This document shows, piece by piece, positions 3,705-23,846 of a stretch of DNA of 23,846 nucleotides. Each line of letters starts with the position of its first letter. Positions within the stretch are counted from its first letter, which is position 1. The translations under genes and the position numbers were made by a program. The DNA is taken from positions 1-23,846 of IMG/VR virus record IMGVR_UViG_3300032675_000134, one strand, 5' to 3'. This DNA comes from a virus. The notes under the pieces were generated by a model that ran no database searches, had not been told where the DNA came from, and saw only the letters and a program-made list of their open reading frames with translations.

Positions 3705-3705
3705 C

Positions 3706-4557
3706 ATGGCAGAAGCAAATTCATCAGTAGCATTTGTTAATAATGCAACAACTCAGATAGTAAATGGCATACTAAAAGAGATTAATCCACCACAATGGCC
3801 TGCTGCATTTGGTGGCAACTATCTGACACAAGGCATTCAAACAACACCAGGTGTTGCTCGTGGTGCATTGACAAACACAGGTGTTGCATATTCAAATGCC
3901 AACTTAGCACACGCTTGTGACTTTAAATTTCAACTTGATATTAATATTGGTGCATTGATTGGTGCAGATTTATCCGCATTAGTTGGTGCAATCAAAGCAG
4001 GCAAATTGGCTGCAGCTAATCTTATTCGAGCATCAATTCTTCAATTGCAACAAGAGTTTAATGCAGCAATCACTGCAATACTTTCTTTGTTAAATCTCGA
4101 TACTTCTGGTATAGCATCATTATCTGTATCTTTGGTTTATGATACAGGTATACGTATACAAGAAATTATCAACCAAGCTGCACAGATTCTTTATGATGTT
4201 TCTTTAGTTGCAAATTTAGTGAAAGATTTACAACAAATCATACAATGGATTGAAAGTTTACCTGCACAATTACAAAACTTATTGAAACAATGTTTGTCAA
4301 ACTTTCAAAGTTCATTAAATTCTGCAAAAAATTCTTTGTCTGTGGCATCAAACTTAGGTCAATCATTTAGTCTGGCAGCAGCAACAGCAAGTGCAACCAC
4401 ATCACAAACGGGAACACCTTCAGCTGCACTAACTATTACAACATCACCATCACAACAAAATATTGGTCAGTTGCAATCATACATAACAAGTGTCACAACA
4501 AGTAGTGTGGCAACCACATCAACAAGTACACAATTTAAGAATTCGTCAAGTCCATAA
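3706..4557 (+). CDS. Unknown helical protein lying between the two gp5 parts
   Basis: The 283-aa product is not recognised. ATG 3706 is chosen because it follows the OB-gene stop by one base; an in-frame TTG at 3649 lies inside that gene and would add unlikely residues. Residues ~25-75 include NPPQWPAAFGG. Residues ~80-215 are predominantly amphipathic or hydrophobic helix (for example AGKLAAANLIRASILQLQQE, AQILYDVSLVANLVKDLQQI and WIESLPAQLQNLLKQCLSNF). The last ~65 residues are a low-complexity Ser/Thr/Ala/Gln tail. Encoded exactly where T4 gp5 has its lysozyme, it could be a spike-associated, chaperone or hub-lumen protein. That is inference from position only. It shows no lysozyme Glu-Asp-Thr pattern. 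Confidence 0.72.
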   Translation: MAEANSSVAFVNNATTQIVNGILKEINPPQWPAAFGGNYLTQGIQTTPGVARGALTNTGVAYSNANLAHACDFKFQLDINIGALIGADLSALVGAIKAGKLAAANLIRASILQLQQEFNAAITAILSLLNLDTSGIASLSVSLVYDTGIRIQEIINQAAQILYDVSLVANLVKDLQQIIQWIESLPAQLQNLLKQCLSNFQSSLNSAKNSLSVASNLGQSFSLAAATASATTSQTGTPSAALTITTSPSQQNIGQLQSYITSVTTSSVATTSTSTQFKNSSSP

Positions 4558-4558
4558 T

Positions 4559-5383
4559 ATGATAGCAAAACCAGATTTTTTTACTGCATGGACAGAACCT
4601 GAATCCGCAGCCAATTCACAATATCAACCGGTATACCCATATAACCATGCAACACAGACCACCAGTGGTCACTCATTCGAATTGGATGATACTCCAACGA
4701 GGGAACGAGTACGACTAGAACACCGCACTGGTACTTTTATTGAAATGCATCCTAATGGTGACGAGGTGCATAAAATCATCGGTGATGGTTATGAAATTAT
4801 TCTTAAAGATAAGAATATGTTGGTGCAAGGTAAACTTAATATCACAGTTATTGGTGATGCCAACTTCCATATTCAAGGTGATAAGATAGAACAAGTTGAT
4901 GGTAATGTAGAACAACACATCAAAGGCAACTTTACACAAACTGTAGAGGGTATGGCAACATATACCACACAAGGTGACACACGTATTGTTGCTGGTGGCA
5001 TTGGTGTTAGTGGTCTTAAAATTACTGCACCAGTTACATCGATAACTGGACAAAATATGTCAGTCAATGCAGACTTTGTGGCTGAAAAGATTACATCAAG
5101 AGGTAGAATTGATGCAACCACAGGTGTTAGTGCAGGACCATTAGGTTTTGTAACTGTGACTGGTGGTGTTTCTGTTGGTATACCTGCAGCTGTACCAACA
5201 GAAATCAATGCAATTGGACCAATCAATTCATTGGTGTCTATGTCTGCACCATTAGGACAATTTGCTGTGATGCAGGCAGTGTGGGCATATGATACAGTGA
5301 ATCTATCGATGCACAATTCACACATTCACATCTCACCAAAAGGACCAACTGGTCCTCCAATTCCTTTGGAAATAGGAGCTTAA
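4559..5383 (+). CDS. gp5 C-terminal beta-helix needle (baseplate spike part 2)
   Basis: The 274-aa product matches the C-terminal part of T4 gp5, the trimeric beta-helical needle that pierces the outer membrane. Residues 36-55, SGHSFELDDTPTRERVRLEH, match T4's SGHIQEFDDTPGQERYRLVH. RTGTFIEMHPNGDEVHKI follows, then short repeats typical of the needle (GDANFHIQGDKIEQVDGN, VEQHIKGNFTQTVEG). Near the end, His255-Ile-His257 in NSHIHISPKGPTGPP resembles the H-x-H metal-binding tip of phage spikes such as P2 gpV and phi92 gp138. ATG 4559 follows the previous stop by one base; a longer in-frame reading from 4490 would overlap the upstream gene. In T4 this segment is released by autocleavage of gp5; here it is a separate gene. 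Confidence 0.86.
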   Translation: MIAKPDFFTAWTEPESAANSQYQPVYPYNHATQTTSGHSFELDDTPTRERVRLEHRTGTFIEMHPNGDEVHKIIGDGYEIILKDKNMLVQGKLNITVIGDANFHIQGDKIEQVDGNVEQHIKGNFTQTVEGMATYTTQGDTRIVAGGIGVSGLKITAPVTSITGQNMSVNADFVAEKITSRGRIDATTGVSAGPLGFVTVTGGVSVGIPAAVPTEINAIGPINSLVSMSAPLGQFAVMQAVWAYDTVNLSMHNSHIHISPKGPTGPPIPLEIGA

Positions 5384-8696: not shown

Positions 8697-9866
8697 ATGA
8701 TACAAAGTAATCAGAAGACCTCGTTACTGGTTCCTTATCAACTCCCTAAGTTTATTAGTGAGGATCCAAACTACGAAAATTTCACTTTGTTCCTTAAAGC
8801 TTACTATGGGTGGCTGGAACAAAGTGGAAACGTCCAGGACGTAGCAAAGAGTCTGTTGGAATATATGGACGTGGATACAACCACGGAACAGTTCCTACAG
8901 TATTATGTTAACGACTTCATGGCTTATTTTCCACAAGAAATACTTGCGGATAAAACAAAAGCAATCAAGATAGCAAAACAACTTTACCAGAACAAAGGTA
9001 ATCCTGCGTCTTTTGAGTTTTTATTTCGAATTCTATACAACTCCGATGTTGACTTTTTCTATACTAAAGATGCGGTGTTTAAAGCTTCATCAGGTAATTG
9101 GTATGTACCGAGAAGTTTGAAATTAGCCACAAATGATCCTAATTTTTTAGCAATTAACAACCTAAGATTGCTTGGACAATCATCAAAGTCTATTGCAACA
9201 GTTGAAAATGCAACATATGATGGTAAAAAGACTGAAGTATTCATCTCAAACATTGAACGATTGTTTCAATCTGGAGAATATGTTACAGTAGTTGATAATA
9301 GTAATCAACCAGTGTGGTTCTTGAATGACCAAATTGTTCCAGCAGGAACATATGGTGCAGAAATTCTGTCAGCACTTATTGTTGGTCAAATTAGCCAAAT
9401 TCTTATTGACCCTAAAAACAGAGGGTTAAACTATGTTACCGGTGACCCCGTTGTTATCTATGGTGGTTTAAACCCTAACGTTGCTTTTCCTGTTGGTGCA
9501 ACAGCATTAGTTGGTTCTGTCGAATCTGGTGGCGTTACACGTGTTACAGTTGAAACAGGAGGTTATGGTTATTCAAATACTTCTCAACAACTAACACGTT
9601 CTGGTGCATCGAACACTCAAATTACATTTTCAAATTTGGTTGGTCCCACAACAACAAGTAAAGTTGCAACACCTATTGCCGTGGTCGGCGGTGGTGACCC
9701 AGCAGGTTATCAATTAGCATCATTCATTCCTATTGATAGCATTTACTATAAATTAAATTATTACATTGGCAATATTGCATCTAGTTATGGTGCAGTACAA
9801 TCATATTCAAACAAACGACCCATACAACTTTGCAAACACATACTCTGGTGGTATATTTCATGCTAA
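8697..9866 (+). CDS. 7: Baseplate wedge protein, T4 gp7-like, upstream part (frame 1)
   Basis: The 389-codon frame carries a conserved gp7 region at residues ~15-130: FISEDPNYENFTLFLKAYYG, then ILADKTKAIKIAKQLYQNKG and NPASFEFLFRILYNSDVDFF. T4 gp7 has a matching stretch (SNFEAFCEAYIQYLSDGYG ... ASYKFLFKVLYNEEVEIE). Residues ~240-315 contain a Gly/Tyr-rich module (VETGGYGYSNTS). The last ~17 residues (RPIQLCKHILWWYISC) look unlike the rest, while the overlapping +1 frame continues sensibly. The natural product is probably a ~1150-aa gp7 spanning 8697-12159. gp7 is the largest T4 wedge protein (1032 aa), forming a heterotrimer with two gp6 copies. Confidence 0.8.
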   Translation: MIQSNQKTSLLVPYQLPKFISEDPNYENFTLFLKAYYGWLEQSGNVQDVAKSLLEYMDVDTTTEQFLQYYVNDFMAYFPQEILADKTKAIKIAKQLYQNKGNPASFEFLFRILYNSDVDFFYTKDAVFKASSGNWYVPRSLKLATNDPNFLAINNLRLLGQSSKSIATVENATYDGKKTEVFISNIERLFQSGEYVTVVDNSNQPVWFLNDQIVPAGTYGAEILSALIVGQISQILIDPKNRGLNYVTGDPVVIYGGLNPNVAFPVGATALVGSVESGGVTRVTVETGGYGYSNTSQQLTRSGASNTQITFSNLVGPTTTSKVATPIAVVGGGDPAGYQLASFIPIDSIYYKLNYYIGNIASSYGAVQSYSNKRPIQLCKHILWWYISC

Positions 9867-12159
9867 TGCAAATACCACATTAGCAAATGCATTTACATTT
9901 ACATCGTTTGGAACATATCCAATATCTTCTATCGTGGTTGAAGACCAAGGTAGTGGTATGAGTCAAGCACCTTCAGTATCAGCAACTGCCGAATATACAA
10001 CAGACTTTGTTGAACCTGTTGGTTATTCAACTACCGACATACAGAATTTAGGTATTCTTGCTAAAATTCAAATTGTAAATCCTGGTCAAAATTATGCAAA
10101 CGGCGACACCTTAGTTTTCATTGGTGGTTCAGGCCGAAGTGCATATGGTAATGTGAAAGTTAATTCTGCTGGATCAATTGTGACAGCAAATTATGTGTAT
10201 AAGAGTGGTGTTACAGCACCTTTGGGTGGCATGGGTTACACAACAAGTGTACCAATTATTGCAATCGCCAATACTGCAACGGGTACTATCACAGCAAGTA
10301 ACACAAGTAATTTAGTTGTTGGTTCTTCTACAGCAACATTTACAACACAATTAAATGTGGGTTCATATTTGGTTACAACATCCAATGTAGTTGTTGGTCA
10401 AATCAGTTCTATTGCAAACTCAAATACATTGTACTTGTCATCGAATGCATCAAACAATTTTACAACATCATCGTTCTATAAAGCTTCTGCACAGTTGGTT
10501 GTTCCTGGTATTTTAGGTACCGGTGCAACATTTACAGACATTGTGTATAACGTTGGTGCGGTAACCACAATTAACATCACAGATAACGGTGAAGACTATA
10601 TTTCTGCACCAGGCGTTTCATTGGCAGTTCAAGACATTGTTGTACAAAATGTAAATCCAATTTTACTTCCTGCTGCTGGCGATGCAATCTATCAAGGTGC
10701 AAACGTTAACGTTGCAACATATACAGCTACAGTTGATTCTATCTTTGTGGTTCAACCAGACATAAATCCAGCAAACTCGGTATATCAACTAAGAGTTTAT
10801 AACTATACATCTATTCCTGTTCAAAATACGGCTGGTGTTATTGTTCCATTGAAGATAGATTCTATTGGTGCCACACTAAACATTTATACAGGGTTTAACA
10901 ATACAAAACAAGTTAATACAAAATTAACATTTGATAATACTGATGCAAGATTCGGTAAAGTATCTCCTGGTGTTATTACTTATGGTGATGGACATGCAAA
11001 GGCAAAATCAACATTCTTGAATGGTCTGGTGATTGGTGCAGGACAATATCTAGACACTGTTGGTCAACCAAGTTCGTTTAGTGTTCTACAAAATCAAGAA
11101 TACAACAACTACACATATCAGATTACACTTTCAAAAGAAATTGAAAAGTACCGTGACGTGTTGTTGAATCTATTGCACCCAACAGGTATGCAAGTTATTG
11201 GTCGTATTGCAATGTCATCGAACAATAACATGAACTATACGACTGTTGATGCATTGGCCAACGGGTTACCAATCAATGACTATTACAATTCAGGACCTAC
11301 TGCAACAATTGTTGGTGGTACCGCAGCAAATCCAAGTAACAACATCATTGCCTTCACCAATTTGGGATTTGGTGGTTCATTGACTACCGCATTTACTGCA
11401 AATCAATCTATCATCAACTTCACATATGGCACAAGACCTACTGACGTTATTGGTGGACTGGTAACAAAAGTAACACAGAATAACCTGACAATTCAAAGTA
11501 ACGTATGGACTTATTTTGCTAATGTGGCTGTTGGTGTTTCACCAGCAGGAAACAACAAACAATTCTATGTTAGTTCATTGACAGGAAGTTATGACATTGT
11601 TAACAATGGAAATTATAGTAATCCATATGCTCCACTAATTGACGTAATTAGAGTTGGTGATGTTATTAGTGTAAATGGTGCATCACAAACTGTACAAACA
11701 GTATCACCTGTTGTGTTTGAACAAACAACAACTGCTGTTGGCACAATCACCTCTCATTCAAATAGTAACACAATTATTGGAACATCAACAGCATTTACAC
11801 AACAATTGTCGGTTGGAACATATTTGGTAACAAGTGATTACAAATATCTTGGTACAATTACTAATATTGTAGATGACCAAACACTATACTTATTAACAAA
11901 TGCATCACAATCAGTAAATTCAAACAATTTCTTTGTAAACGTTGGAACATTAAGTAATACATATTATGGTATTGTAACGTTGAGTAATTCATTGACCAAT
12001 GGTGCAAACGGTTTGGTGTCAGTAAGTAGAACAATGACTTCAATACCAGGCCAAATTCAAATTTATAACTCAGTCGGAACACAGTATTTCTTGGAATTAA
12101 CTACTGAAAACGGAAACGTATTGACAGACGAACAAGGAAACGCACTTCTAATAGGATAA
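9787..12159 (+). CDS. 7: Baseplate wedge protein, T4 gp7-like, downstream part (frame 2)
   Basis: This frame opens after a stop at 9754-9756. The first TTG is at 9766 and the first ATG at 9787; neither has a Shine-Dalgarno, so independent initiation is doubtful. Meaningful protein sequence begins near NDPYNFANTYSGGIFHANAN at ~9814. Around 11095-11215 it has QEYNNYTYQITLSKEIEKYR, then LLHPTGMQVIGRIAM. This matches the C-terminal part of T4 gp7 (RSRSYYVMKIKSNL ... RFVHPVGFGFIAI), so both frames belong to one ancestral gene. Gly/Tyr-rich modules occupy ~9930-10650 and a duplicated ~66-residue module is present. The C-terminus LTTENGNVLTDEQGNALLIG is simple and polar. Confidence 0.8.
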   Translation: MVQYNHIQTNDPYNFANTYSGGIFHANANTTLANAFTFTSFGTYPISSIVVEDQGSGMSQAPSVSATAEYTTDFVEPVGYSTTDIQNLGILAKIQIVNPGQNYANGDTLVFIGGSGRSAYGNVKVNSAGSIVTANYVYKSGVTAPLGGMGYTTSVPIIAIANTATGTITASNTSNLVVGSSTATFTTQLNVGSYLVTTSNVVVGQISSIANSNTLYLSSNASNNFTTSSFYKASAQLVVPGILGTGATFTDIVYNVGAVTTINITDNGEDYISAPGVSLAVQDIVVQNVNPILLPAAGDAIYQGANVNVATYTATVDSIFVVQPDINPANSVYQLRVYNYTSIPVQNTAGVIVPLKIDSIGATLNIYTGFNNTKQVNTKLTFDNTDARFGKVSPGVITYGDGHAKAKSTFLNGLVIGAGQYLDTVGQPSSFSVLQNQEYNNYTYQITLSKEIEKYRDVLLNLLHPTGMQVIGRIAMSSNNNMNYTTVDALANGLPINDYYNSGPTATIVGGTAANPSNNIIAFTNLGFGGSLTTAFTANQSIINFTYGTRPTDVIGGLVTKVTQNNLTIQSNVWTYFANVAVGVSPAGNNKQFYVSSLTGSYDIVNNGNYSNPYAPLIDVIRVGDVISVNGASQTVQTVSPVVFEQTTTAVGTITSHSNSNTIIGTSTAFTQQLSVGTYLVTSDYKYLGTITNIVDDQTLYLLTNASQSVNSNNFFVNVGTLSNTYYGIVTLSNSLTNGANGLVSVSRTMTSIPGQIQIYNSVGTQYFLELTTENGNVLTDEQGNALLIG
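9805..9823 (+). other. Frame-change point in gp7-like gene (+1 or -2)
   Basis: Both frames are open together from 9757 to 9863. The best switch by content lies in TTCAAACAAACGACCCA. The upstream frame reads TCA AAC AAA CGA CCC and the downstream frame reads ACA AAC GAC CCA TAC. Removing one A would give a seamless SNNDPYNF. A ribosomal +1 slip at CGA-CCC-A is an alternative. A natural indel, a sequencing error in an A-run, and a programmed shift cannot be told apart here. Confidence 0.72.
10282..10485 (+). repeat. Internal protein repeat of gp7-like gene, copy 1
   Basis: About 68 codons encode GTIT...GSSTATFTTQLNVGSYLVTT, then GQISSIANSNTLYLSSNAS and a closing Phe. It repeats at 11740-11940 with the pattern GTIT-(I/V)G(S/T)STA-F-T-QL-VG-YLVT-G-I--I---TLYL--NA. 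Only the protein pattern is conserved; the DNA copies have diverged. Confidence 0.7.
11740..11940 (+). repeat. Internal protein repeat of gp7-like gene, copy 2
   Basis: This is the second copy of the module at 10282: GTITSHSNSNTIIGTSTAFT, QQLSVGTYLVT, then GTITNIVDDQTLYLLTNAS and NNFFVN. It lies C-terminal to the YTYQITLSKEIEKY region. Similar sticky beta modules are, to my knowledge, common in phage tail proteins. Confidence 0.7.
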
Positions 12160-12162
12160 AAA

Positions 12163-13593
12163 ATGTCACAAGTAAAGATTTCACAATTACCAGTATTCAA
12201 TACAATTAACGCCAATACAGCAAATACTTTGTTTGTGGGTGTTGATGTTCCCACAGATGTAACTTTTCAAATGACTGCACACACCTTAGCACAAGGTTTG
12301 TATTCAAATGAAAATCTGAATGTTGGTAGCAATCCAAATACATTACCCAATACTGTTGCACAGTTTGTTCAGGGTGGTGATTCTTACATTCAAACAAATT
12401 TGGTCAACACTAATGATGGTGGTTCTGCTGACATTGTGGTTACTGCAAATGCTGGTTCTGGTGGTACAGACTCTGCATACTTCATTGATATGGGGTTTGT
12501 CAATAAAAATTATCAACCAGGTTCTGAATTTAATAACATTGGCACAGCAGTATCTCCATTGGATGGTTACTTGTATGTTCAAGGCGGCGCGATTGGTGCA
12601 CCTGGCGGTCCAGGCGGCAACTTGATTGTTGGTACAACAACCGCAAATACTGAACTTAGATTTATAGTTGGTGGCGGAACTTCAAGTAATGTTGTTGCAA
12701 AAATGAATAGTAAAGGCTTGGTGTTGACAGGTAATGTGACACCATCAGGCACAAATGCATATTCTTTAGGTACATCCACATTACGCTGGGGTGATATTTG
12801 GATTGGACCAAACACTATCAATATTACAGATACGGTGACAGGAAATAATGCAGGATTAACTGTTGCAAATGGCATTTTACAAATACAAGGTGCAAATCAA
12901 CTACAGGTTGGACAATTAAAGTTTGTTAATAATACAATAGAATCAACCACAGGTAATGTTGACATACAGATTGATTTAACAAGCAGTAGTGCAAATTTGG
13001 TTCTAAACCGAAACGTAGTAACTGCTGCCGGTAAAACAATAGGATTAATTGATGCTACCACAAACGTTGCCGCAACACTATCTTCAAACAATGGAACGAT
13101 AGTTATTGCAGGAGCAACTGGTATATTGGTGGGCAATATTAAAATTTATGGAAGCACGATTGAATCTTCTGCACTTTCAACAGATATTCAACTTGGAGAT
13201 CCTGCGGCTTCTGCAAATTTGGTAATAAATCGTAATACAATTTTTACAAAAAATATTACATCCAACAACATAACAACAAATGGTTTAGAATTCATTCAAC
13301 CTAATTATATCAACATAACCGCACCAAGTTCAAATGTTCAATTGAGTAACACTGTATCACATAACATTTTAATAACAAATAATAGTTCAAATCCAACAAT
13401 CATAATGCCTGCAAATCCTAAAGAAGGACAAATTTGTAGTTTTACGAATGCTGGACCGAATACGGTCGCCCTATACAGTTCATCATCAAATCCAACCATA
13501 ATCCCATCATTTGTTGGTTCTCCCCCTGCAAAAGGATATATGTTGAAATATGTCTGGAATTCAGCAAACACACAATGGATAGTTTGTCCTTAA
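12163..13593 (+). CDS. Fibre-like baseplate/tail protein with intramolecular repeats
   Basis: The 476-aa product is probably a trimeric fibre or peripheral baseplate protein. The N-terminus MSQVKISQLPVFNTINANTA resembles the KISxLP attachment segments seen in many phage structural proteins. Residues ~140-170 are Gly-rich (GGAIGAPGGPGGNLIVG). Residues ~200-225, YSLGTSTLRWGDIWIGPNTI, match a motif frequent in phage fibres (LG-x3-RW-D-W-NTI). A 37-residue element occurs twice, 74 residues apart. The C-terminus (MPANPKEGQICSFTNAG ... WNSANTQWIVCP) resembles a small beta head domain. AGGA lies 8 bases before the ATG. T4 has no such gene between 7 and 8. Confidence 0.72.
   Translation: MSQVKISQLPVFNTINANTANTLFVGVDVPTDVTFQMTAHTLAQGLYSNENLNVGSNPNTLPNTVAQFVQGGDSYIQTNLVNTNDGGSADIVVTANAGSGGTDSAYFIDMGFVNKNYQPGSEFNNIGTAVSPLDGYLYVQGGAIGAPGGPGGNLIVGTTTANTELRFIVGGGTSSNVVAKMNSKGLVLTGNVTPSGTNAYSLGTSTLRWGDIWIGPNTINITDTVTGNNAGLTVANGILQIQGANQLQVGQLKFVNNTIESTTGNVDIQIDLTSSSANLVLNRNVVTAAGKTIGLIDATTNVAATLSSNNGTIVIAGATGILVGNIKIYGSTIESSALSTDIQLGDPAASANLVINRNTIFTKNITSNNITTNGLEFIQPNYINITAPSSNVQLSNTVSHNILITNNSSNPTIIMPANPKEGQICSFTNAGPNTVALYSSSSNPTIIPSFVGSPPAKGYMLKYVWNSANTQWIVCP
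12904..13014 (+). repeat. 37-residue fibre repeat, copy 1
   Basis: These 111 bases encode QVGQLKFVNNTIESTTGNVD then IQIDLTSSSANLVLNRN. They align without gaps to the copy starting 222 bases downstream, sharing VG, K, TIES, DIQ, SANLV and NRN. The pattern suggests an internal duplication in a beta-structured fibre shaft. Confidence 0.75.
13126..13236 (+). repeat. 37-residue fibre repeat, copy 2
   Basis: This second copy encodes LVGNIKIYGSTIESSALSTD then IQLGDPAASANLVINRN, the same length as the copy at 12904-13014. It is followed by TIFTKNITSNNI, where the first copy has VVTAAGKTIGLI. Confidence 0.75.
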
Positions 13594-13609
13594 TAAGAAT
13601 AAATAAATC

Positions 13610-15070
13610 ATGAACAATCCCAATCTAAACATACTCACAAACATGGCCAAGGTGGCTCAAGTTGAATTGGAATACTATCTTCCAATTGCAACAGTTCTTG
13701 GCCAACAAGTTGGTTCAATTTATGCGTTTCTTGGCCAAGAAGACCCATGGCCATATGTGAATGGTGTAGAAACTCCGATTCAACCAACAGAAGACCAATA
13801 TTATTTGAAGAAAACCTTCAAGAATATGTTTGCTTTGAAACTTCTCAATTCAAACAACTTGAGTCCTGTTATTCAAAGAATTGATTGGGCAAATAACACC
13901 AACTATTTTGCATATTCTGACACGCAAAACAACTATGCAAAAGATGCCAACGGATTTTTGATTAATAATTTCTACGTGAGGAACCGTTACGACCAAGTTT
14001 TCAAATGTTTAGCTAACAATCAAGGTGCACTATCCACATACGAACCATACTTCCAACCAGGTTCTTATGGTACCAATAACATCTATGAAGGTCCAGACCT
14101 TTATAAATGGAAATATATGTACACAATCGATGCTGGATCCAAGAATAATTTTATGGATTCTGTTTGGATGCCTGTGCCGGTTGGTGCAAACACACCACAA
14201 CCTTACATGACACAAGCAGGTTGCGGTGATGTTGAAGTTATTAATATAACTAATGGTGGTTCTGGTTATGACGCACTAAATGATTATATTGTTGTTACTG
14301 TATCGGGAGATGGAACCGGAGCAGTTGGCGCTATAACTCCTTCACAAGTTGTTGGTGGAAGTATTGTAGATGTTACTGTTCCACAAGGTGGTTCTGGAAA
14401 TAACTACACCTTTGCTAATGTATCAATCACTGCATATACTTCATCGAATCAAAAATTTTTGGCACCAATTACATCCAGAGCCACAGCAATTGCACCAGTT
14501 TCACCTGTTGGTGGCCACGCATATGACTGTGTTTCTGAATTAGGTTGCAGTCATATTATGTTTTCAGTTGAATTTAATGGTTCGGAAGGTGCTGGTGTAA
14601 ATTCTATTCCAACAGATGGTGTTGTTTATCGTCAAGTTGGACTTCTTATCGATCCCCAAATGTATGGTACAACCGGTGCAGTATTGGCCAATGGTGCAGT
14701 GTATAATACAACAACACAAATTCAATTGCCATCAGGTACAGGAATATATTATTCAGACGACCTTGTTTTTCAAGGTAAGTCAGTGGATACAACATCCAAA
14801 CAAACAATCATGAACACCGCTTCATTCTATGGTACGGTTTTGAATTTCAATACGTCTACCAATATATTACAACTGATAAATACAACAGGTGAATTAACGT
14901 TGAATCAATCCATCATAGATTTCCAAACAAATGAGTCTAGAGTTGTTTTCAGTTATTCAAATTCTCCAATAATTCCATTTTCTGGATACATCACATATAT
15001 AGAGAATCGAGCTGGTGTTCAGAGAAGTGCAGACGGTATAGAACAATTCAAATTCGTTCTTGGGTATTAA
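13610..15070 (+). CDS. 8: Baseplate wedge protein, T4 gp8-like
   Basis: gp8 is a dimeric wedge protein that binds gp7 and gp10 in T4. The 486-aa product is longer than T4 gp8 (334 aa). Landmarks are IYAFLGQEDPWP (~37-48; T4: IFITFGRSEPW), VIQRIDWANNTNY (~84; T4: VIPRRDWGDTRY), YDQVFKCLANNQG (~127; T4: WLVYRCLDVPDTG), LYKWKYMYTID (~165; T4: YVWEYLFEI), YRQVGLLIDP (T4: FRQISIITNP), and the C-terminal ITYIENRAG with IEQFKFVLGY (T4: IYMENRPP and EEINILFTF). The extra length is largely a Gly/Tyr module at ~208-282 (NGGSGYDALND, SGDGTGAVGA). The start has only a weak purine tract (AATAAG) upstream. Confidence 0.9.
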   Translation: MNNPNLNILTNMAKVAQVELEYYLPIATVLGQQVGSIYAFLGQEDPWPYVNGVETPIQPTEDQYYLKKTFKNMFALKLLNSNNLSPVIQRIDWANNTNYFAYSDTQNNYAKDANGFLINNFYVRNRYDQVFKCLANNQGALSTYEPYFQPGSYGTNNIYEGPDLYKWKYMYTIDAGSKNNFMDSVWMPVPVGANTPQPYMTQAGCGDVEVINITNGGSGYDALNDYIVVTVSGDGTGAVGAITPSQVVGGSIVDVTVPQGGSGNNYTFANVSITAYTSSNQKFLAPITSRATAIAPVSPVGGHAYDCVSELGCSHIMFSVEFNGSEGAGVNSIPTDGVVYRQVGLLIDPQMYGTTGAVLANGAVYNTTTQIQLPSGTGIYYSDDLVFQGKSVDTTSKQTIMNTASFYGTVLNFNTSTNILQLINTTGELTLNQSIIDFQTNESRVVFSYSNSPIIPFSGYITYIENRAGVQRSADGIEQFKFVLGY

Positions 15071-15075
15071 TATAC

Positions 15076-15080
15076 AAAGG
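15076..15080 (+). promoter_or_regulatory. Ribosome binding site for the 1740-aa gene
   Basis: AAAGG lies 8 bases before ATG 15089 in the 18-base gap after the gp8-like gene. This is one of the clearer ribosome sites here and fixes the start of the largest gene. Confidence 0.55.
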
Positions 15081-15088
15081 TTAAATAA

Positions 15089-18000
15089 ATGGCTATCAAT
15101 TTTAATTCTACTCCATACTATGACGATTTTGACCCAACAAAGAATTTTCATCGCATTTTGTTTAAACCTGGATATGCAGTTCAAGGTCGTGAATTAACTC
15201 AATCTCAAACAATTCTTCAGAATCAAATTTCTGAGTTTGCTTCGGCAATTTATTCACAAAATACTCCCGTATCTGGTGGACAAGTTACAACAAACTTGAA
15301 TTGTTATTACATCAAGTTGAACCAGACAAATCCTAATGGTTTGACAGTCACTGCTGCAAACTTTGCAAACCAAGTTATCACAGACCCAGCAGGTGTTGTT
15401 ATCGCTAGAGTTATTGGTACAATTGAAACAACAAGCAGCGGCTCTACTGTTGGTGATCCACCAACTTTGATTGTTTCTTATGTTTCAGGTCAACATTTTA
15501 CTGATGGTATGACATTGACAACATCAACACTAGCAATTCCACAATCCGCTACTGTTGCAACATCTTCAGATTCTACTGGTCCATCTACAGGTTTGTCATC
15601 TACCGCATCTGTTGCTAATGGTGTTTTTTACATTGTTAATGGTTATTCTGTTTCTCCAACAACAGGCCAAGAATATTCAATTGGTAATTTTGTAAATGTC
15701 AATCCCCAAACAATTGTTCTAGACAAATACGACAATACACCAACATATCGTATTGGTTTGCAAATCAATGAAACAGTTTATGACTATGTGACAGATTCTT
15801 CATTGTTAGATCCAGCTATCGGATCAACAAACTTCCAAGCACCAGGTGCGGACCGATATGTCATTACATTGACATTAACAACATTACCATTGACCATCGG
15901 TAATGACCAGGGTTTTATTGAATTGGTCCGTATCGTCAACGGTCAAATTCAAAATCAAGTCAACGGCACCTCTTATTCATCCATCGATGATTATTTTGCA
16001 AAACGTGATTATGAAACGAATGGTGATTACATTGTTAATGATTTCACATTAACACCTTCTGCAAACACATTAGGAGATACATCATCGTATGATTTGGGTA
16101 TCAGTAAAGGTATAGCATACGTTCACGGTTATCGTATTGAAGCTCAATCTGGTTCAACATTAACAATACCAAGAGCACAAAGTACAAACGTAATCAACAA
16201 CAATGATGTTTTTGTTGATTATGGAAACTATTTTGTTGTCGATACTGTTGGTGGTTTGTTTGACGTTGGTCAAGTTCCACAAATTGATTTACATGCTGTG
16301 ACTGCGGCAAATATTGCCACAGGAAGTATCAACGGATACAATTCTACTAAAGCTGGTACAGCATTTATTAGAAACTTACAATACGTATCTGGATCAGGTT
16401 CAACCACAAAATCTTACATCTACAATGCTTACGTTTCAGATTTTGTTGGAACAACGCTATCTGGAACAGCAACAAATTCTAGTACCGCAAACACAATTGT
16501 TGTCACAGATACCGCAGCAACATTCTCTAACGTTGCCAATGCATACTATGGTGCAACAATCACCACAACCAATTCAGGTAGTGCAGTTTCGGACACTTTG
16601 GTGATTACAAATTACACCGTATCTGGAACAACCAAAACCTTCTATACTTCTGGTTTCCAAATCACGCCAACCACCAGCACATCATTCACATTGTCATTTG
16701 GTACACAATCTGTTGATTCTCTAGTTGTTCCAAATGGTTCTGGTGGTTACACAGCTAATGCAAACATCAACATTGCCTTGGGTAAAAACCTTGGTGTTGC
16801 AACGAACCCAACACTATTTAATAATCCAGGTGCTTCTGAACTAATTTTCCCAATTGGTTACCCATATGTTTCCAACGTTTCAAGTTCAACATATTTCACA
16901 CAACGTGTGTATCGTAGTATAACATTGAATTCTCCATATACCTTGGACGCAACAGACGGTCAAGGTAGTGCAAGTCCATTCAGATTTGAAGGTTCCAACA
17001 ATTCTTCTGGAATGATTGTTATTGATAGTTCATCTGGAAACGTATTGGATTTTTCAACTTCTGGAAACACAATCACATTCTCATCAGACAAGACTTCTGC
17101 TAAATTCACATCATCAACATGGAATGGTAAGAGTGTTAATATTATTGCACAGGTTTCTATCAACAATGCTGATACTGCAACATATGTTTTGAAATCGAAA
17201 CATTTGGTTAATGGTAACACCGCATATGGTAGTTCTTCAATGACATCAATTGGTTACACCGGAACTTCTGTTGATATCAATGCAGTACAGACATTAATCA
17301 ATAAAGCAAACGTTGCTTCTGGTATTAAAATGTCTCTATACTGCACAGACATTAAAAATATTGTAAAAGTGTATGATACAGGTACATCAGCTTGTACAGC
17401 ATCAGGAACAGTATTGTCTACTCTAACAGACATTACAAACTTCTACAGTCTGGATAATGGTCAACGTGATAACTACTATGACTTTGGTTCAGTTTCATTG
17501 GTTCCAGGAGCACCTCTGCCATCTGGAAACATTTTGGTTGTATTTAATTATTACTCACATACAAAAGATACATCTGGAGACGGTTACTTTAGTATTCAAT
17601 CATATGCAAACACCGGTTCTGCATATGGTGGTGTATCAACCGCAGGTGAAGCATATCAACAAATCCCAGTGTATACATCAAAAGATGGTAATGTGTATGC
17701 ATTGAGAGATTGTTTAGACTTTAGACCAGTTCGTGCAAATCCAGGTCAAACAAACTTCTCTGCAACAGCTTACAATTGGGAATTCTCAAATAAACAAGCA
17801 CCAGGTACAACCAATATCAGTATCTTGTTGCCACAAAACAACACAAACTACCAAAGTAACTATGGATACTACTTGGGTAGACAAGACCGTTTGGTGTTGA
17901 CTAAAGATAAGAGTTTCCAAGTTATATCTGGAACACCTTCAGTAACTCCAATTCTACCAACACAACCTGACGGCACATTGTTGTTAGCTAACCTGTTGCA

Positions 18001-20311
18001 TGACCCATACACCGGTTATGTTCCAGGTGAAGGACCTCCTGGTGTTACACCAAATTTGTCTATCAACAAGATTCTACACAAACGCTGGGCTAAATCTGAC
18101 ATTACAGATTTGGAAACACGTATCAACAATCTTGAATACTACACATCACTAAGTCAATTGGAAGCAGCTGCATCATCAACTCAAGTTCCAGACAGTCTTG
18201 GTGTGACAAGACCAAATCTTGGTATTTTGGTTGATGCATTTAATTCTTACTCTACCGCAGATACTGGAAATGCAGATTATGCTGCCAATATTAACGTAAG
18301 AAAGAATCAATTAACACCAATTTCTATTGTTAATAACTATCAGTTGCAAAATCCTGTTGTGTTGTCATCTTTGGGAACATTGACTGAAACAAACACATAC
18401 ACAATTAATACAATTAATGGAACAAATTCAACTGTATATACTTTGCCTTACACAGCAGCAAATTTAATTGTTCAACAATATGCAACAGGTGCAGTTTCTG
18501 TTAACCCATTTGCGGTTACCATACAACAAGGTGTGGCACAATTAACTCCACCAATGGACAATTGGGTAGACAATACTCAGGCGCCTCCAATCTTGGTAAC
18601 TGACCCATCGATGCAAGTCTATCAACAGACAAACGGTGTCAACCTAACCAATTCTGGTGACTTCCAAACCATTCCTGGTACAGCAACTACTGTATCAAGT
18701 TCTGTTTCTGTTGTTAATCATGGTAACCCAGCCGTTAATAGTCCATTTGGTTCTACTGTTGGTTATACTGCAACAACAACTTCAACATACGCAAGTCAAA
18801 TCCAAAATGTGACAGGCAATTCTTACCAACCAGTTTCATCCACATTTGGTCAGAATAATGGTTACTTGACAAACATTGCAGTATTGCCATATATTCGTCC
18901 ACAACAACTCATCATTCAAGCAAGTGGTTTGTTGACTAACCAAAATGTGACAACATGGTTCGATGGACAACAAGTTGACCAATACATGCAATCACCAAAC
19001 ACCATCGAAGTTAGTGGTGTATCTGGAACATTTAACAATGGTGATATTGTTGGTTTCTATTTGTCCAACCAGTTCTATCCTGTAGCTCGTGTCATTTCTA
19101 TCTACCACTATCCAAATGGTACACAAGTTCGTTTGTATGTGGCCGATATTATCACACCTTTGAACAGTGTTGGTACAACTACATTACAAAATGGTTTCTA
19201 TGATGCAAACGGAAACTATTCCGGCACAACCGCATCTGGAACAATCAGTTCAGGTATCATTGATATCAGCATGAGTGGTGAAGTTGCTGGTGTTGGTGGT
19301 GGTTACTCAAACACATTCAATGGAAGTGCTACAACACACCTGTACTCAATACCAGTTGTGCAAGGTTACAGTTCTTTCTTGAATCAATATGGTGTTTGGG
19401 GTGATCCAAACAACAGTACAGCATTTAATCCTGTATACTCTGTAAATATTCCAGCAGGAACATATACAGTGCAGGTTGCTTCATCTGGAACAGGGACAGT
19501 AAGTTTCTGGTCAACAAGCACTCCAGGAACATTGTTAACAACAGTTTCCGCACCAGTCAATACACCATCTTCAGTAACAACATCATCAGTTACATTTGCT
19601 TCTGCTGTATTGTCTCTTGGTTATTCTGCAACAAGTTCAGGATCAACACAATCAGCTTTCGCTTTAGTCATTAAAGACTCTAGTGGTAATGTTGTATATT
19701 CATCTATAACTCCTCCTGGTTTGAGTGGACAATATTTGAATGCCGGAACAGAAGTAAATATGTATCAAGGTGGTGCATGGTTTGTGGGTGCAACACAGTT
19801 ATATCTTGGACCAAATGCATCTTCTTCTACAAATTATTATGCTGGTTCACAAATTACAATCACATCCAAATATTTGAATGCTGTAAATGTGGCTGCAACG
19901 TATGTTCCTCCACCACCACAACCAAGTCCAGGACCAAATCCAGGTTACGGTTGCGTAGTTGCAACTGAATTGGCAAAACAAAATAATGGATGGTCCAAAC
20001 GTGATATGTTGCGTTTGATGAGTTGGTCGTTTAAAGAATTGGACAAATCAACTATTGGCAATATCTTACACAAAGGTTACCAAGTTATTGGTCCTAATTT
20101 CTTGTTACCAATTGTTAAGAAGCGTGGATCTACTGCCGCAAAATATATTAAATGGTCTTTCAATCAGTCGATAAATATGTTACAAGGTAAGAAATATAAT
20201 AAAGTTTCTATACCAAACAGTTTAGCTTGGATGTCTATTATGATTGTGACTGGTTTATATGTTGTAACCAAAGAACAAGTTAAAGCACTTTACGAAAAAT
20301 TGGAAAAATAA
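15089..20311 (+). CDS. Giant DUF4815-type tail/baseplate protein with C-terminal Cys domain
   Basis: The 1740-aa product is probably a peripheral baseplate or fibre-network protein. Residues ~5-75 (YYDDFDPTKNFHRILFKPGY, then VQGRELTQSQTILQNQI) match the N-terminus of the DUF4815 family of phage structural proteins, supported by YSSIDDYFAKRDYETNGDYI at ~292. A Ser/Thr beta insertion lies at ~450-540. A short coiled stretch (DITDLETRINNLEYYTSLSQ) lies at ~1007. Residues 1607-1619 form a proline linker (VPPPPQPSPGPNPG). Residues 1620-1740 form a compact helical domain: GCVVATELAKQ with Cys1622, LHKGYQVIGPNFLLPIVKK, and a 16-residue hydrophobic stretch 1711-1726. Host binding is possible but unproven. 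It is the longest gene in the window. Confidence 0.8.
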   Translation: MAINFNSTPYYDDFDPTKNFHRILFKPGYAVQGRELTQSQTILQNQISEFASAIYSQNTPVSGGQVTTNLNCYYIKLNQTNPNGLTVTAANFANQVITDPAGVVIARVIGTIETTSSGSTVGDPPTLIVSYVSGQHFTDGMTLTTSTLAIPQSATVATSSDSTGPSTGLSSTASVANGVFYIVNGYSVSPTTGQEYSIGNFVNVNPQTIVLDKYDNTPTYRIGLQINETVYDYVTDSSLLDPAIGSTNFQAPGADRYVITLTLTTLPLTIGNDQGFIELVRIVNGQIQNQVNGTSYSSIDDYFAKRDYETNGDYIVNDFTLTPSANTLGDTSSYDLGISKGIAYVHGYRIEAQSGSTLTIPRAQSTNVINNNDVFVDYGNYFVVDTVGGLFDVGQVPQIDLHAVTAANIATGSINGYNSTKAGTAFIRNLQYVSGSGSTTKSYIYNAYVSDFVGTTLSGTATNSSTANTIVVTDTAATFSNVANAYYGATITTTNSGSAVSDTLVITNYTVSGTTKTFYTSGFQITPTTSTSFTLSFGTQSVDSLVVPNGSGGYTANANINIALGKNLGVATNPTLFNNPGASELIFPIGYPYVSNVSSSTYFTQRVYRSITLNSPYTLDATDGQGSASPFRFEGSNNSSGMIVIDSSSGNVLDFSTSGNTITFSSDKTSAKFTSSTWNGKSVNIIAQVSINNADTATYVLKSKHLVNGNTAYGSSSMTSIGYTGTSVDINAVQTLINKANVASGIKMSLYCTDIKNIVKVYDTGTSACTASGTVLSTLTDITNFYSLDNGQRDNYYDFGSVSLVPGAPLPSGNILVVFNYYSHTKDTSGDGYFSIQSYANTGSAYGGVSTAGEAYQQIPVYTSKDGNVYALRDCLDFRPVRANPGQTNFSATAYNWEFSNKQAPGTTNISILLPQNNTNYQSNYGYYLGRQDRLVLTKDKSFQVISGTPSVTPILPTQPDGTLLLANLLHDPYTGYVPGEGPPGVTPNLSINKILHKRWAKSDITDLETRINNLEYYTSLSQLEAAASSTQVPDSLGVTRPNLGILVDAFNSYSTADTGNADYAANINVRKNQLTPISIVNNYQLQNPVVLSSLGTLTETNTYTINTINGTNSTVYTLPYTAANLIVQQYATGAVSVNPFAVTIQQGVAQLTPPMDNWVDNTQAPPILVTDPSMQVYQQTNGVNLTNSGDFQTIPGTATTVSSSVSVVNHGNPAVNSPFGSTVGYTATTTSTYASQIQNVTGNSYQPVSSTFGQNNGYLTNIAVLPYIRPQQLIIQASGLLTNQNVTTWFDGQQVDQYMQSPNTIEVSGVSGTFNNGDIVGFYLSNQFYPVARVISIYHYPNGTQVRLYVADIITPLNSVGTTTLQNGFYDANGNYSGTTASGTISSGIIDISMSGEVAGVGGGYSNTFNGSATTHLYSIPVVQGYSSFLNQYGVWGDPNNSTAFNPVYSVNIPAGTYTVQVASSGTGTVSFWSTSTPGTLLTTVSAPVNTPSSVTTSSVTFASAVLSLGYSATSSGSTQSAFALVIKDSSGNVVYSSITPPGLSGQYLNAGTEVNMYQGGAWFVGATQLYLGPNASSSTNYYAGSQITITSKYLNAVNVAATYVPPPPQPSPGPNPGYGCVVATELAKQNNGWSKRDMLRLMSWSFKELDKSTIGNILHKGYQVIGPNFLLPIVKKRGSTAAKYIKWSFNQSINMLQGKKYNKVSIPNSLAWMSIMIVTGLYVVTKEQVKALYEKLEK

Positions 20312-22489
20312 ATGACAACACAAGTATTCCCGGCCAAATACACATATACAGCAAATATAACTGCATATGATGCCACTACAAAAATTGTGACACTTGATAA
20401 ACCTGTAAATATCTCTATGGGTTACAACCAACAATTTGGTGATATCACATCGTTATATTCTATTAGAGGTACTGCAACAAGTATTGCAAATGCCATAAAC
20501 GCTGGTGGTGCACCAAAATTATCAACAGACGAGGGTGGTAATTTTGTTGGCATTTTCAATATACCTAGTACTAAATTCCAAACTGGTTCTAGAGTATTTC
20601 GTATTGATAATAGAACTGTTTTGGGTGACCAAACTACTGCAACAACATATGCAGAAGCAACATTCACCGCATCTGGATTGGCCACAAACTCACAACAACT
20701 AAATTTTGGTGCATCGGTTGATTCATCTGGAACAACCTTTACACAAGTTAGCCAGACACCACAACAACTTGTAAGTACAATTACAACATATTCACCATAT
20801 GATCCTGTTGCTCAATCGTTCTTGGTTGACCCAGCAAATTATCCAAATGGTGTGTTTTTGAATTCTATTAAATTGTTCTTTGCAACCAAACCAACAACCA
20901 ACATGCCAATCACGGTGTCTATTGTACCAACTGTGAATGGATATCCTAAAGGCAAAGCTTTGGATTATTCAACAGTAACATTGCAAGCAAATCAAGTTGT
21001 TACGAGTTCTAGTCCTTATTATTTGGATTCTTCTACTTACACAGAGTTTATGTTTAATGCTCCGGTGTATATTCAATCTGGTGTTTTGTATGCAATTTTG
21101 ATTAAGGCATCTTCTCCAGATTATACCTTATATTATGCAGAACAAGGTAAGGTTGTAAGTCCAACATCAACAGCTAAATCAAGTGCTAGTGCAGCTGCAC
21201 CTTCGCAAGCCAATGCACCAAAAATTGGCCAAGCACCATATGTCGGTGCATTGTTTGAATCACAAAATTCTATCACATGGACAGCAGACCAAACTAAAGA
21301 TTTGATGTTTGTTATCGATAGATGTGTATTCCAAACAGGTTCGGCAACAATTCCTTTTGTTATTCCACAAGGCGCACCCGCAAGAAAACTAGGTCACAAT
21401 GATGTAAGATATAAGATTGACCCAACTATTATGAATAATACTTTGGGTAATTTTGGTACATATCAATATTTGGATGCATTGAATGTATCCACAACAGATT
21501 TCACACCAACCGATACATCAATCACATATGCATATCAATCAACATTGGCATCAACAAATGCGGCAACAGCTCTTACACCTATTACACCAGCGAGTAAGGG
21601 TACTGCAATGCCTGAGAATGTTTATTTGAATGATGGTTTAGGCGAACGTGTTATAAATCCAGCTTTGTCAAACACATTTACTTTGCAGGCAACATTGCAA
21701 TCCGCTGACGCTAACGTTTCTCCTATCATTTCTGATGATGCCGTATCATTGTTTGCAGTGAAGTATATCATCAACAATATGGGTATTGGCAACAATGTCA
21801 TCAGCGTTGCAAATACAGGATATGGTTATAACGTACAAACCGCTTCAATAAGCATTTCAAGTCCTGATGTTCCAGGATCAAATTCTGCCACATTAGGTTA
21901 CACAGCAAATGCTAACGGCGCAATTACTTCTGTTTATGTCATTACTCCAGGTTCTGGATATCTGACAAGTCCAACTATCACCATTTACGATCCAACAACA
22001 AGAAGCGGAAATGCAAACGCCTCTATCATTGTTCGTGGTGAAACAGGATCATCTGGTGGTAATTCTTGGGCAAAATACTTCACCAAGAAAGTTGTTCTTG
22101 CACCAGGTAATGACGCAGGCGACTTACGTGTTTATCTGAATGCATATCAACCATTGGGTTCTGGAATTTATGTTTACTATAAGATTCTAAGTTCACAAGA
22201 TGGTGGTGCTAAGTTTGAGTCTGGTAACTGGCAATTGATGACATGCACAAACAACTATAATACATATTCAACCGATAGAACAAATGTGATTGAGTATGAA
22301 TATGCACCAGGTGTATTCAACACACACCAAGCAAACAATTATATTTCATACACCAATGCTAGTGGCCAAACATTCTCAACATTTATACAGTTTGCAATCA
22401 AGGTTGTTATGGCAACAAACGATAAAACAAATGTTCCATATGTGGCCGCACTGAAAGCTCTTGCTCTACCACAAGGAACAGGACTGTAA
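20312..22489 (+). CDS. Tail/baseplate structural protein, companion of the DUF4815-type protein
   Basis: ATG 20312 follows the previous stop with no gap, so the two are likely translated together. The 725-aa product carries, at ~165-275, YSPYDPVAQSFLVDPANYPN, then SIKLFFATKPTTNMPITVSI, PTVNGYPKGKAL and SGVLYAILIKASSPDYTLYY. To my knowledge this domain is widespread in phage tail proteins, sometimes joined to DUF4815 in one chain. Residues ~495-576 hold the Gly/Tyr module twice (VANTGYGYNVQT, TPGSGYLTSPTITIYDP). The C-terminal part (WAKYFTKKVVLAPGNDAGDL, LNAYQPLGSGIYVYYKIL, IQFAIKVVMATNDKTNVPYV) is a beta-sandwich-like end. Exact role unknown; virion location is inferred. Confidence 0.78.
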   Translation: MTTQVFPAKYTYTANITAYDATTKIVTLDKPVNISMGYNQQFGDITSLYSIRGTATSIANAINAGGAPKLSTDEGGNFVGIFNIPSTKFQTGSRVFRIDNRTVLGDQTTATTYAEATFTASGLATNSQQLNFGASVDSSGTTFTQVSQTPQQLVSTITTYSPYDPVAQSFLVDPANYPNGVFLNSIKLFFATKPTTNMPITVSIVPTVNGYPKGKALDYSTVTLQANQVVTSSSPYYLDSSTYTEFMFNAPVYIQSGVLYAILIKASSPDYTLYYAEQGKVVSPTSTAKSSASAAAPSQANAPKIGQAPYVGALFESQNSITWTADQTKDLMFVIDRCVFQTGSATIPFVIPQGAPARKLGHNDVRYKIDPTIMNNTLGNFGTYQYLDALNVSTTDFTPTDTSITYAYQSTLASTNAATALTPITPASKGTAMPENVYLNDGLGERVINPALSNTFTLQATLQSADANVSPIISDDAVSLFAVKYIINNMGIGNNVISVANTGYGYNVQTASISISSPDVPGSNSATLGYTANANGAITSVYVITPGSGYLTSPTITIYDPTTRSGNANASIIVRGETGSSGGNSWAKYFTKKVVLAPGNDAGDLRVYLNAYQPLGSGIYVYYKILSSQDGGAKFESGNWQLMTCTNNYNTYSTDRTNVIEYEYAPGVFNTHQANNYISYTNASGQTFSTFIQFAIKVVMATNDKTNVPYVAALKALALPQGTGL

Positions 22490-22490
22490 T

Positions 22491-22712
22491 ATGGCTTTGG
22501 TTAAGGTTACTGGCACCAATTTTATCAGAGATACTGCAAGTATGGCCATTTTGCCACCAGACACAACTCTAAAAAATGATTATTTTGCTAGAGTCCGTGT
22601 GGCAAAGGCCCAAAAAGATGAAATAAATAACATTAAGTCTGAAATAGACGTTATCAAAACAGATATGGGTGAAATCAAAAGTCTGTTAAAGCAACTAATA
22701 GGTAAAGAATAA
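22491..22712 (+). CDS. Small coiled-coil protein of the tail cluster
   Basis: The 73-aa product starts at ATG 22491, one base after the previous stop; an in-frame TTG at 22461 would lie inside the upstream gene. Residues 1-40 (MALVKVTGTNFIRDTASMAI, LPPDTTLKNDYFARVR) look like a small folded or docking segment. Residues 42-73 (KAQKDEINNIKSEIDVIKTD, then MGEIKSLLKQLIGKE) form a heptad-like coiled coil with Ile/Leu at core positions. It may oligomerise or clamp a fibre. Function is not known. It overlaps the next gene by 1 nt. Confidence 0.75.
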   Translation: MALVKVTGTNFIRDTASMAILPPDTTLKNDYFARVRVAKAQKDEINNIKSEIDVIKTDMGEIKSLLKQLIGKE

Positions 22713-23846
22713 TGGCAAATACAGTTCCAATTTTAGGTTATGCTAACACTTTTGGTGATTGGGTCACTTCAACCAATGCAGGTTCGAATGAAATTAACTC
22801 CATTGGTGAGGCCGATTGGGTTAAAGACTCTGGTATTTTGTTCCTTAATGGTTATCCAACAAGTATGCAGGCAAATAATACTGCCTTGTTCAGTGGTTAT
22901 TTGCACGTCACTGGTGGTGCTTCTTCAGCAAAGGTTGATAACAACTTAACTGTTGGCGGCCAAGTATACTTCTCCAATACAGTATCAACATTATATGCAA
23001 ATGGTGCCATGTATGCCAATGGTACCATATACGCTGGTAACTCATATTACGGTCTAGTTGTTGGTAACAATACATTGTTATCTGGATATGTAAACATCGG
23101 TGGCAACACCACAATTTCCAATACAGTTAATGTAACAGGTTATGCAAACCTAAATAGTAATCTTTCTGTTTATGGACCAACTGTTCTATCCAATACATTA
23201 AATGTTACCGGTCTAACAACAATTTCCAATAATGAAATTGTTACAGGTTACATTACAGGCCAAAGTACACTACAAATTTATAATGGCGCAACAGTAAATT
23301 ACCTACAATCAAATACCGCAGTCAATACAAACACAGTATCTGCAACATCATTGGTTTATGGTAATGCAGTCCAAGCCAATAGTCAAGTCAATACTGCAAC
23401 AATTTCTGTTACAGGTACAGGTTATTTAAACTATGTACAGGCCAACTCTACTGTTAATACAACTACACTATCAGCAACCGGTACCGGTTTTGTAAACTAT
23501 TTACAAGCAAACAGTGTAGTAAACACAACAACTGCATCTGTTACAGGTACTGCTTTTGTAAATTACTTACAAGCAAATAATGCAATTAATACACAAACAA
23601 TTAATGCAAACGTATCTATCGGTAATGTAGTACAGGCCAACTCTACCGTTAATACTACATCATTAGTTGCATTTAGTAATGTGACAACTGGTATTGTCCA
23701 AGCAAACACAAGTGTTAACACCACTTCATTGATTGCTTTCAGTAACGTCACAACAAATACAATACAAGCTAACTCAACAATCAATACAACATCATTGATT
23801 GCTTTCAGTAACGTCACAACAAATACAATACAAGCTAACTCAACAA
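22712..23846 (+). CDS. Repeat-rich tail fibre-like protein (partial, runs off right edge)
   Basis: ATG 22712 overlaps the previous stop (TAATG) and the frame stays open for 378 codons to the edge. The N-terminus MANTVPILGYANTFGDWVTS has an NTFGDW segment like phage fibre attachment ends. Residues ~60-195 are irregular beta repeats with Asn-Thr-Val and Thr-Gly-Tyr (TISNTVNVTGYANLN, TVLSNTLNVTGLTTISN). From residue ~197 on, a regular 22-residue repeat begins (QANSTVNTTTLSATGTGFVN). The composition (Asn, Thr, Ser, Val, Ala; almost no charge) fits a fibrous trimer shaft. The receptor-binding tip would be outside the window. Confidence 0.8.
   Translation, partial: MANTVPILGYANTFGDWVTSTNAGSNEINSIGEADWVKDSGILFLNGYPTSMQANNTALFSGYLHVTGGASSAKVDNNLTVGGQVYFSNTVSTLYANGAMYANGTIYAGNSYYGLVVGNNTLLSGYVNIGGNTTISNTVNVTGYANLNSNLSVYGPTVLSNTLNVTGLTTISNNEIVTGYITGQSTLQIYNGATVNYLQSNTAVNTNTVSATSLVYGNAVQANSQVNTATISVTGTGYLNYVQANSTVNTTTLSATGTGFVNYLQANSVVNTTTASVTGTAFVNYLQANNAINTQTINANVSIGNVVQANSTVNTTSLVAFSNVTTGIVQANTSVNTTSLIAFSNVTTNTIQANSTINTTSLIAFSNVTTNTIQANST
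23726..23780 (+). repeat. 55-bp near-recent direct repeat, copy 1
   Basis: Positions 23726-23780 are identical to 23792-23846, offset by exactly one 66-base unit. DNA identity here, against only protein-level similarity earlier in the array, indicates recent duplication or gene conversion. Confidence 0.9.
23792..23846 (+). repeat. 55-bp direct repeat, copy 2 (reaches window end)
   Basis: This copy matches 23726-23780 base for base to the last base of the window, so the identity may extend further. An identical repeat at a boundary can also mark the place where an assembly stops or collapses. Confidence 0.9.

Follow-up and report, generated by a model that had tools for sequence, protein, structure and literature searches.

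The window, i.e. the whole stretch of 23,846 nucleotides analysed here (IMG/VR virus record IMGVR_UViG_3300032675_000134), exhibits an ORF (position 15089 to 20311, 1740 amino acids long) whose product is the N-terminal half of a tail protein of the VrlC/DUF4815 type. The ORF scores 191.4 bits against PF16075 (cut-off 30), which assigns it to the VrlC/DUF4815 family. The P-Y-Y-D-D-F motif of VrlC is present at its N-terminus (MAINFNSTPYYDDFDP), and a homologue of solved structure is the DUF4815 domain-containing protein ORF65 (PDB 9euf, E-value = 2.6e-25). In pelagimyophage, VrlC has been described as an integral component of a two-layered baseplate (PMC7029224). The phrog_358 profile is covered from 4 to 1262 by the 1740-aa protein (P0001) and continues from 1276 to 1637 in the next ORF (20312 to 22489); therefore a single ancestral VrlC chain is encoded here by two genes. 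The ATG of the second ORF directly abuts the stop codon of the first, and the split falls exactly after a C-terminal module of the first protein. The features of the locus are the following.

15089 to 20311, plus strand: N-terminal half of the VrlC/DUF4815 tail protein, 1740 aa (PF16075, phrog_358, PDB 9euf)
19907 to 19951, plus strand: Pro/Gly linker PPPPQPSPGPNPGYG, residues 1607-1621 (translation)
19952 to 20308, plus strand: Cys-box helical module, residues 1622-1740 (alignments A4, A5 and A10; five helices by AlphaFold2)
19952 to 20050, plus strand: Cys box and second helix (CVVATELAKQNNGWSKRDMLRLMSWSFKELDKS), the most constrained part (dN/dS; C2 and W26 invariant in A10)
20210 to 20266, plus strand: C-terminal hydrophobic stretch IPNSLAWMSIMIVTGLYVV, a borderline membrane helix (hydropathy)
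20312 to 22489, plus strand: C-terminal half of the VrlC family as a separate gene (phrog_358 profile 1276-1637; fused to the N-terminal half in 16 of 59 relatives)

Three other regions of the window deserve mention. A gp7-like gene (phrog_17744; 8697 to 12159) is frameshifted into two ORFs (8697-9866 and 9766-12159). Because the gene is intact, as a single 1160-aa ORF, in a nearly identical overlapping contig (L054) and in many relatives, the frameshift probably stems from a difference in assembly or sequencing. A gp5-like hub/lysozyme gene (phrog_430; 3372 to 5383) is represented by three overlapping ORFs in different frames, which may reflect further frame differences or a real split. The ORF at 22712-23845, which contains tandem repeats (FSNVTTNTIQANSTINTTSLIA...) and runs off the contig end, likely encodes a fibre.

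After a beta-rich body, the 1740-aa protein ends with ...ATYVPPPPQPSPGPNPGYG-C1622-VVATELAKQNNGWSKRDML...LHKGYQVIG...SLAWMSIMIVTGLYVVTKEQVKALYEKLEK*. The original prediction, made from the letters of the window, had placed an abrupt change of domain near this end, and our analysis supports it; the linker, Cys1622, LHKGYQVIG and 16-residue hydrophobic run (SLAWMSIMIVTGLYVV) that it described were all found in the translation of the ORF. The module starting at Cys1622 (GCVVATELAKQ, hereafter the CVVAT module) comprises 119 residues, is basic and is predicted to be all-helical. An AlphaFold2 model based on 14 homologues places helices at 2-10, 17-31, 35-57, 62-78 and 87-119 with moderate confidence (mean pLDDT 80.8). 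Five columns are invariant in an alignment of 20 members (A10): C2, W26, G43, Y44 and W69. The sequence preceding the module is rich in Gly, Pro or Ser in most members, and in all members measured the net charge is +6 to +15 and a hydrophobic stretch lies towards the C-terminus.

The same prediction called the domain membrane-like, which holds in part. A hydrophobic run is present, followed by a Lys-rich tail, but it qualifies only as a borderline membrane helix: its Kyte-Doolittle value is 1.54 and its Wimley-White sum -7.6, where beta-rich controls reach -5.6 and -7.9, and the stretch contains Pro and Asn. Since it does not clearly exceed the beta segments of VrlC itself in hydrophobicity, membrane contact is hypothetical. 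Cys-containing C-terminal tags, such as the MYXO-CTERM and other tripartite sorting tags, have been described (PMC11980579) and resemble the module in their invariant-Cys motif, hydrophobic segment and basic C-terminal tail. These tags are, however, short and occur on exported proteins with signal peptides, whereas the phage module exhibits about 85 conserved helical residues between the Cys and the hydrophobic stretch. Measured against a tripartite signal, the module has the basic tail and a hydropathy that is borderline and not above the beta controls, and the VrlC N-terminus (MAINFNSTPYYDDFDPTKNFHRILFKPGYA) exhibits, by inspection, no hydrophobic core of a signal peptide. A periplasmic sorting route of the kind used by CTERM signals therefore cannot simply be transferred to VrlC.

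Selection has acted unevenly along the protein. Comparisons among the window and two relatives (L002, L003) yield dN of 0.000-0.025 at dS of 0.5-0.9 for the first 33 codons of the module, against dN of 0.20-0.26 for the protein body and 0.42-0.61 for the domain preceding the linker. Given such a low dN at this dS, the Cys box and the second helix are the most constrained of the parts compared. Recent DNA transfer of the box is rejected: dS of the box resembles dS in the remainder of the module and, in pairs that include the window, is near that of the body.

The belief that similar ends exist in other phages turned out to be correct. Iterated profile searches of IMG/VR loci identified 32 distinct module ends, nearly all in metagenomic contigs; all are C-terminal, and all contain the Cys, located 114-123 residues from the end. 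Together with the low dN of the box, this recurrence shows that the end is not a chance feature. A survey of the carriers, as the original prediction had proposed, revealed several kinds. VrlC carries the module either at the site seen in the window (site 1) or at another one, which lies some 150 residues past the start of the C-terminal half (site 2; L057, L059, L073 and others). In L057, L059, L073 and similar loci, about 450 nt separate the module stop codon from the point where homology to the C-terminal half resumes. Further carriers are small proteins of Ig-like appearance (234-279 aa; L090, L112, L119, L121 and L123), the one in L112 being encoded downstream of an apparent gp23-type capsid gene (by inspection), and two podovirus-type proteins of 657 and 926 aa (L101 and L131), whose bodies are related to each other and whose genes lie near portal, coat or stabilisation genes. 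One carrier is known from a cultured phage: gp49 of Roseobacter phage CRP-1, encoded next to the portal gene, ends in a divergent copy of the module (CYVAT type). CRP-1 was first seen at a sub-threshold E-value of 0.2 in a tblastn search of annotated phages, and was accepted after motif comparison and BLAST. The end of gp49 matches those of L131 (BLASTP E-value = 7e-9) and L101 (E-value = 6e-7); its profile match (E-value = 2.6e-25) is not independent proof, because the profile includes a CRP-1 row. Apart from CRP-1, tblastn searches with the modules of the window, L003 and L059 found no relative in annotated phages, and the module profile, run over bacterial genome contigs, found none either.

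The window module exhibits no family match in Pfam, NCBIfam or PHROGs, and a profile search of PDB returned nothing. Fold searches with the models of this module and of a second module described below (KIICT) detected no significant match in PDB or BFVD (best BFVD E-value = 1.4, TM 0.52). These profile and structure searches, which the original prediction had called for, likewise gave no significant match to a C-terminal trimerisation, chaperone or docking domain. With the recurrence described above, neither of the two outcomes named there as speaking against the idea was observed. The resemblance of the Cys box to boxes of the CFI type, also proposed there, fared better. Bacterial CFI-box-CTERM proteins were fetched with a consensus sequence and verified with the NCBIfam model (108 bits). 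Their profile aligns by hhalign with that of the module (P = 1.9e-4, probability 48%) over about 48 columns in register from the Cys, and none of 200 column shuffles scored as well. Like the module, the CFI-box-CTERM domain (NF041770) is C-terminal, follows a Gly-rich linker, starts with an invariant Cys followed by [FV][IV]AT, and continues with helices containing G...Y up to a hydrophobic end that includes basic residues. The phage module differs in being longer, in keeping Trp and GY, and in residing, for VrlC, on a carrier with no signal peptide. Judged from these profiles, a distant kinship of the two domains is possible; we consider it likely but not proven, because most of the signal lies in the box, and removing the box leaves P = 0.02, a score equalled in 4 of 150 shuffles. 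The NF041770 cut-off (40 bits) is reached by no phage member (the window gives no match; the best seen, L112, scores 11.6 bits with E-value = 0.19), and for this reason we do not file the module under CFI-box-CTERM. Our literature search found no paper on the CFI box.

The position occupied by the module in the window's VrlC harbors different ends in other loci: Hint domains, a distinct helical module, or short tails. Hint domains are found in L030, L031, L032, L036 and L066, and as a tandem array in L042; PF05203 is above its cut-off in L066 and L042. The L042 protein (13495-16185) is a 2400-aa VrlC ending in about five tandem Hint domains, of which the inner ones end in HN-K and the last lacks HN. 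The distinct helical module, KIICT, starts with [KR][IV]IC[TN] and occupies the site in L017, L020, L034, L056, L072 and L078. On a tree of 59 VrlC bodies the end type changes at least 16 times, and the grouping of CVVAT ends as one clade is rejected (AU p = 1.7e-37). Moreover, in pairs such as L010/L012 and L072/L083, DNA identity is for the most part 65-85% as far as the linker and returns to this level where the C-terminal half begins, the module alone lying between. The VrlC site is an exchange site common to CVVAT modules, self-processing Hint domains and KIICT modules. Neither this exchange nor the gene split right behind the module figured in the original prediction.

The exchange with Hint makes processing at the Cys the main rival to the reading that we prefer below. 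According to this alternative, the module would be a propeptide or an aid to assembly, cut off where the linker meets the Cys while the particle assembles or afterwards, by a non-Hint route at the place of Hint. Real Hint domains (PF05203, PF01079, PF13403) reside at the same linker/Cys position of VrlC in other phages, and in one close pair, L091 (CVVAT) and L036 (Hint), which are sisters on short branches of the VrlC tree, the two proteins differ by this very exchange. Hint, bacterial intein-like and Hog modules resemble the CVVAT module in starting with a Cys after the same linker; the Cys of the CVVAT module directly follows the linker, as in Hint junctions. In Hint, N-terminal cleavage occurs at Cys1, and HN is needed for C-terminal cleavage (PMC7765530). 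The terminal Hint domains of VrlC exhibit the T..H block and lack the C-terminal HN; on this principle N-terminal cleavage only is expected of them. Yet Hint has its own fold and a catalytic T..H block, whereas the CVVAT module, of about 120 residues, is all-helical with neither. No Hint profile matches the module, so that it does not belong with Hint, and its conserved residues are C, W, GY and W, a His/Asn catalytic set not being among them. Nor did we find a protease that could act as its partner. We regard removal at the junction as unlikely. The helical tail found after Hint, considered as a relative of the module, exhibits no relation to it (P = 0.41). The papers that we consulted on Hint in phages concern inteins in enzymes or terminase, not tail proteins.

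The KIICT module (alignment A11) resembles the CVVAT module in that it too is a Cys-box module placed behind a linker at the C-terminus of many unrelated virion proteins, and in the order of its predicted elements: a box helix, a second helix and a third helix bearing GY. It differs in that its Cys lies three residues further in. The link between the two sequences is weak (P = 0.001-0.016), and a comparison of KIICT with the CFI box gave no reliable relation. AlphaFold2 predicts a confident helical fold for KIICT (pLDDT 88.7), with no significant match in PDB. Dozens of structural bodies unrelated to one another carry KIICT, with one or two copies per record. In L229-L250, L267, L272 and others it ends many such proteins, baseplate-hub-like (MFLGREGFYWWIG...) and fibre-like ones among them, sometimes in two neighbouring genes. 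Phage HTVC033P gp76 (ICT type) and CRP-1 gp49 (CYVAT type) are encoded at the same place in their genomes, following the portal gene, and their bodies exhibit no BLAST similarity to each other. A broader version of the processing idea would take Hint, CVVAT and KIICT as interchangeable devices for covalent processing or attachment of a virion-protein C-terminus at the Cys after the linker, the Cys-box modules being non-Hint, sorting-signal-like processing domains that would operate within the virion and be related to CFI-box-CTERM; we consider this version quite improbable.

The CVVAT module occurs exactly once per record in all 16 records searched, including contigs of 145, 157 and 208 kb, although records may be incomplete. 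The CVVAT query matched all 16 carrier records and none of 20 others. In the records tested, which again may be incomplete, no two of the three end types (CVVAT, KIICT, Hint) were found together. We are nearly certain that CVVAT is properly described as a portable C-terminal module borne by one virion protein per phage. A single copy, varying carriers and end types not found together would also suit a virion-borne cargo, i.e. a helical domain, possibly membrane-active, that would ride on whichever structural protein is available and be passed to or into the host to serve, for example, in exclusion or counter-defence, and the location of the podovirus-type genes described above would agree with it. 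This reading is nevertheless improbable: VrlC is by family a baseplate component (PMC7029224), of which ejection is not expected, and for the module Pfam, NCBIfam and PHROGs revealed nothing resembling known effectors or exclusion proteins.

The presence of the module coincides with the division of the VrlC gene. VrlC is a single chain of about 2,100-2,360 aa in the 16 unsplit relatives. All 36 loci of the tree with a module have the gene split (for L091 and a few others whose sequence stops close to the module, this was judged from the stop codon alone), versus seven of the 23 loci with no detected module, the other 16 being one chain. The raw table gives a Fisher p of 2e-9 for loci that are not independent; phylogenetically independent pairs, of which 4-5 are informative, all point in the expected direction with p = 0.06-0.13, which is not significant. 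The VrlC chain is divided wherever a module of one of these types is present, leaving the module a free C-terminus. Two near-complete phages with an unsplit VrlC exhibit no module in VrlC or other proteins by three profiles and a rough motif scan, and the module is therefore dispensable. The co-occurrence of split and module could instead mean that an ordinary accessory adhesion or docking domain keeps the two VrlC halves joined once the gene is split, or joins VrlC to a fibre. Such a role seems doubtful at best, given that the module also resides on proteins other than split VrlC and that the seven split VrlC proteins with no module end in short tails.

Overall, the best explanation in our judgement, held with considerable reserve, is that the module serves as an interchangeable end for tethering or contact, borne on a flexible linker and requiring a free C-terminus. 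Tethered contact or anchoring alone, as a mechanism, we propose more tentatively still. Extended by its linker from the tail or the virion surface, the module might use its basic and hydrophobic helices to dock onto an envelope or membrane partner, and the Cys box could provide a reactive or docking edge.

A widespread baseplate protein has a site that swaps unrelated C-terminal modules, including the self-processing Hint, in a gene broken in two so that the C-terminus is freed. This suggests that phage tail proteins may be finished or attached in a manner not described before. It also provides a tentative link between phage virion proteins and an uncharacterised bacterial C-terminal domain, the CFI box. 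The cultured Roseobacter phage CRP-1, through its gp49, offers a system for testing the function of the module. Our results suggest that many phage proteins annotated only as hypothetical may have one finishing or attachment device in common.
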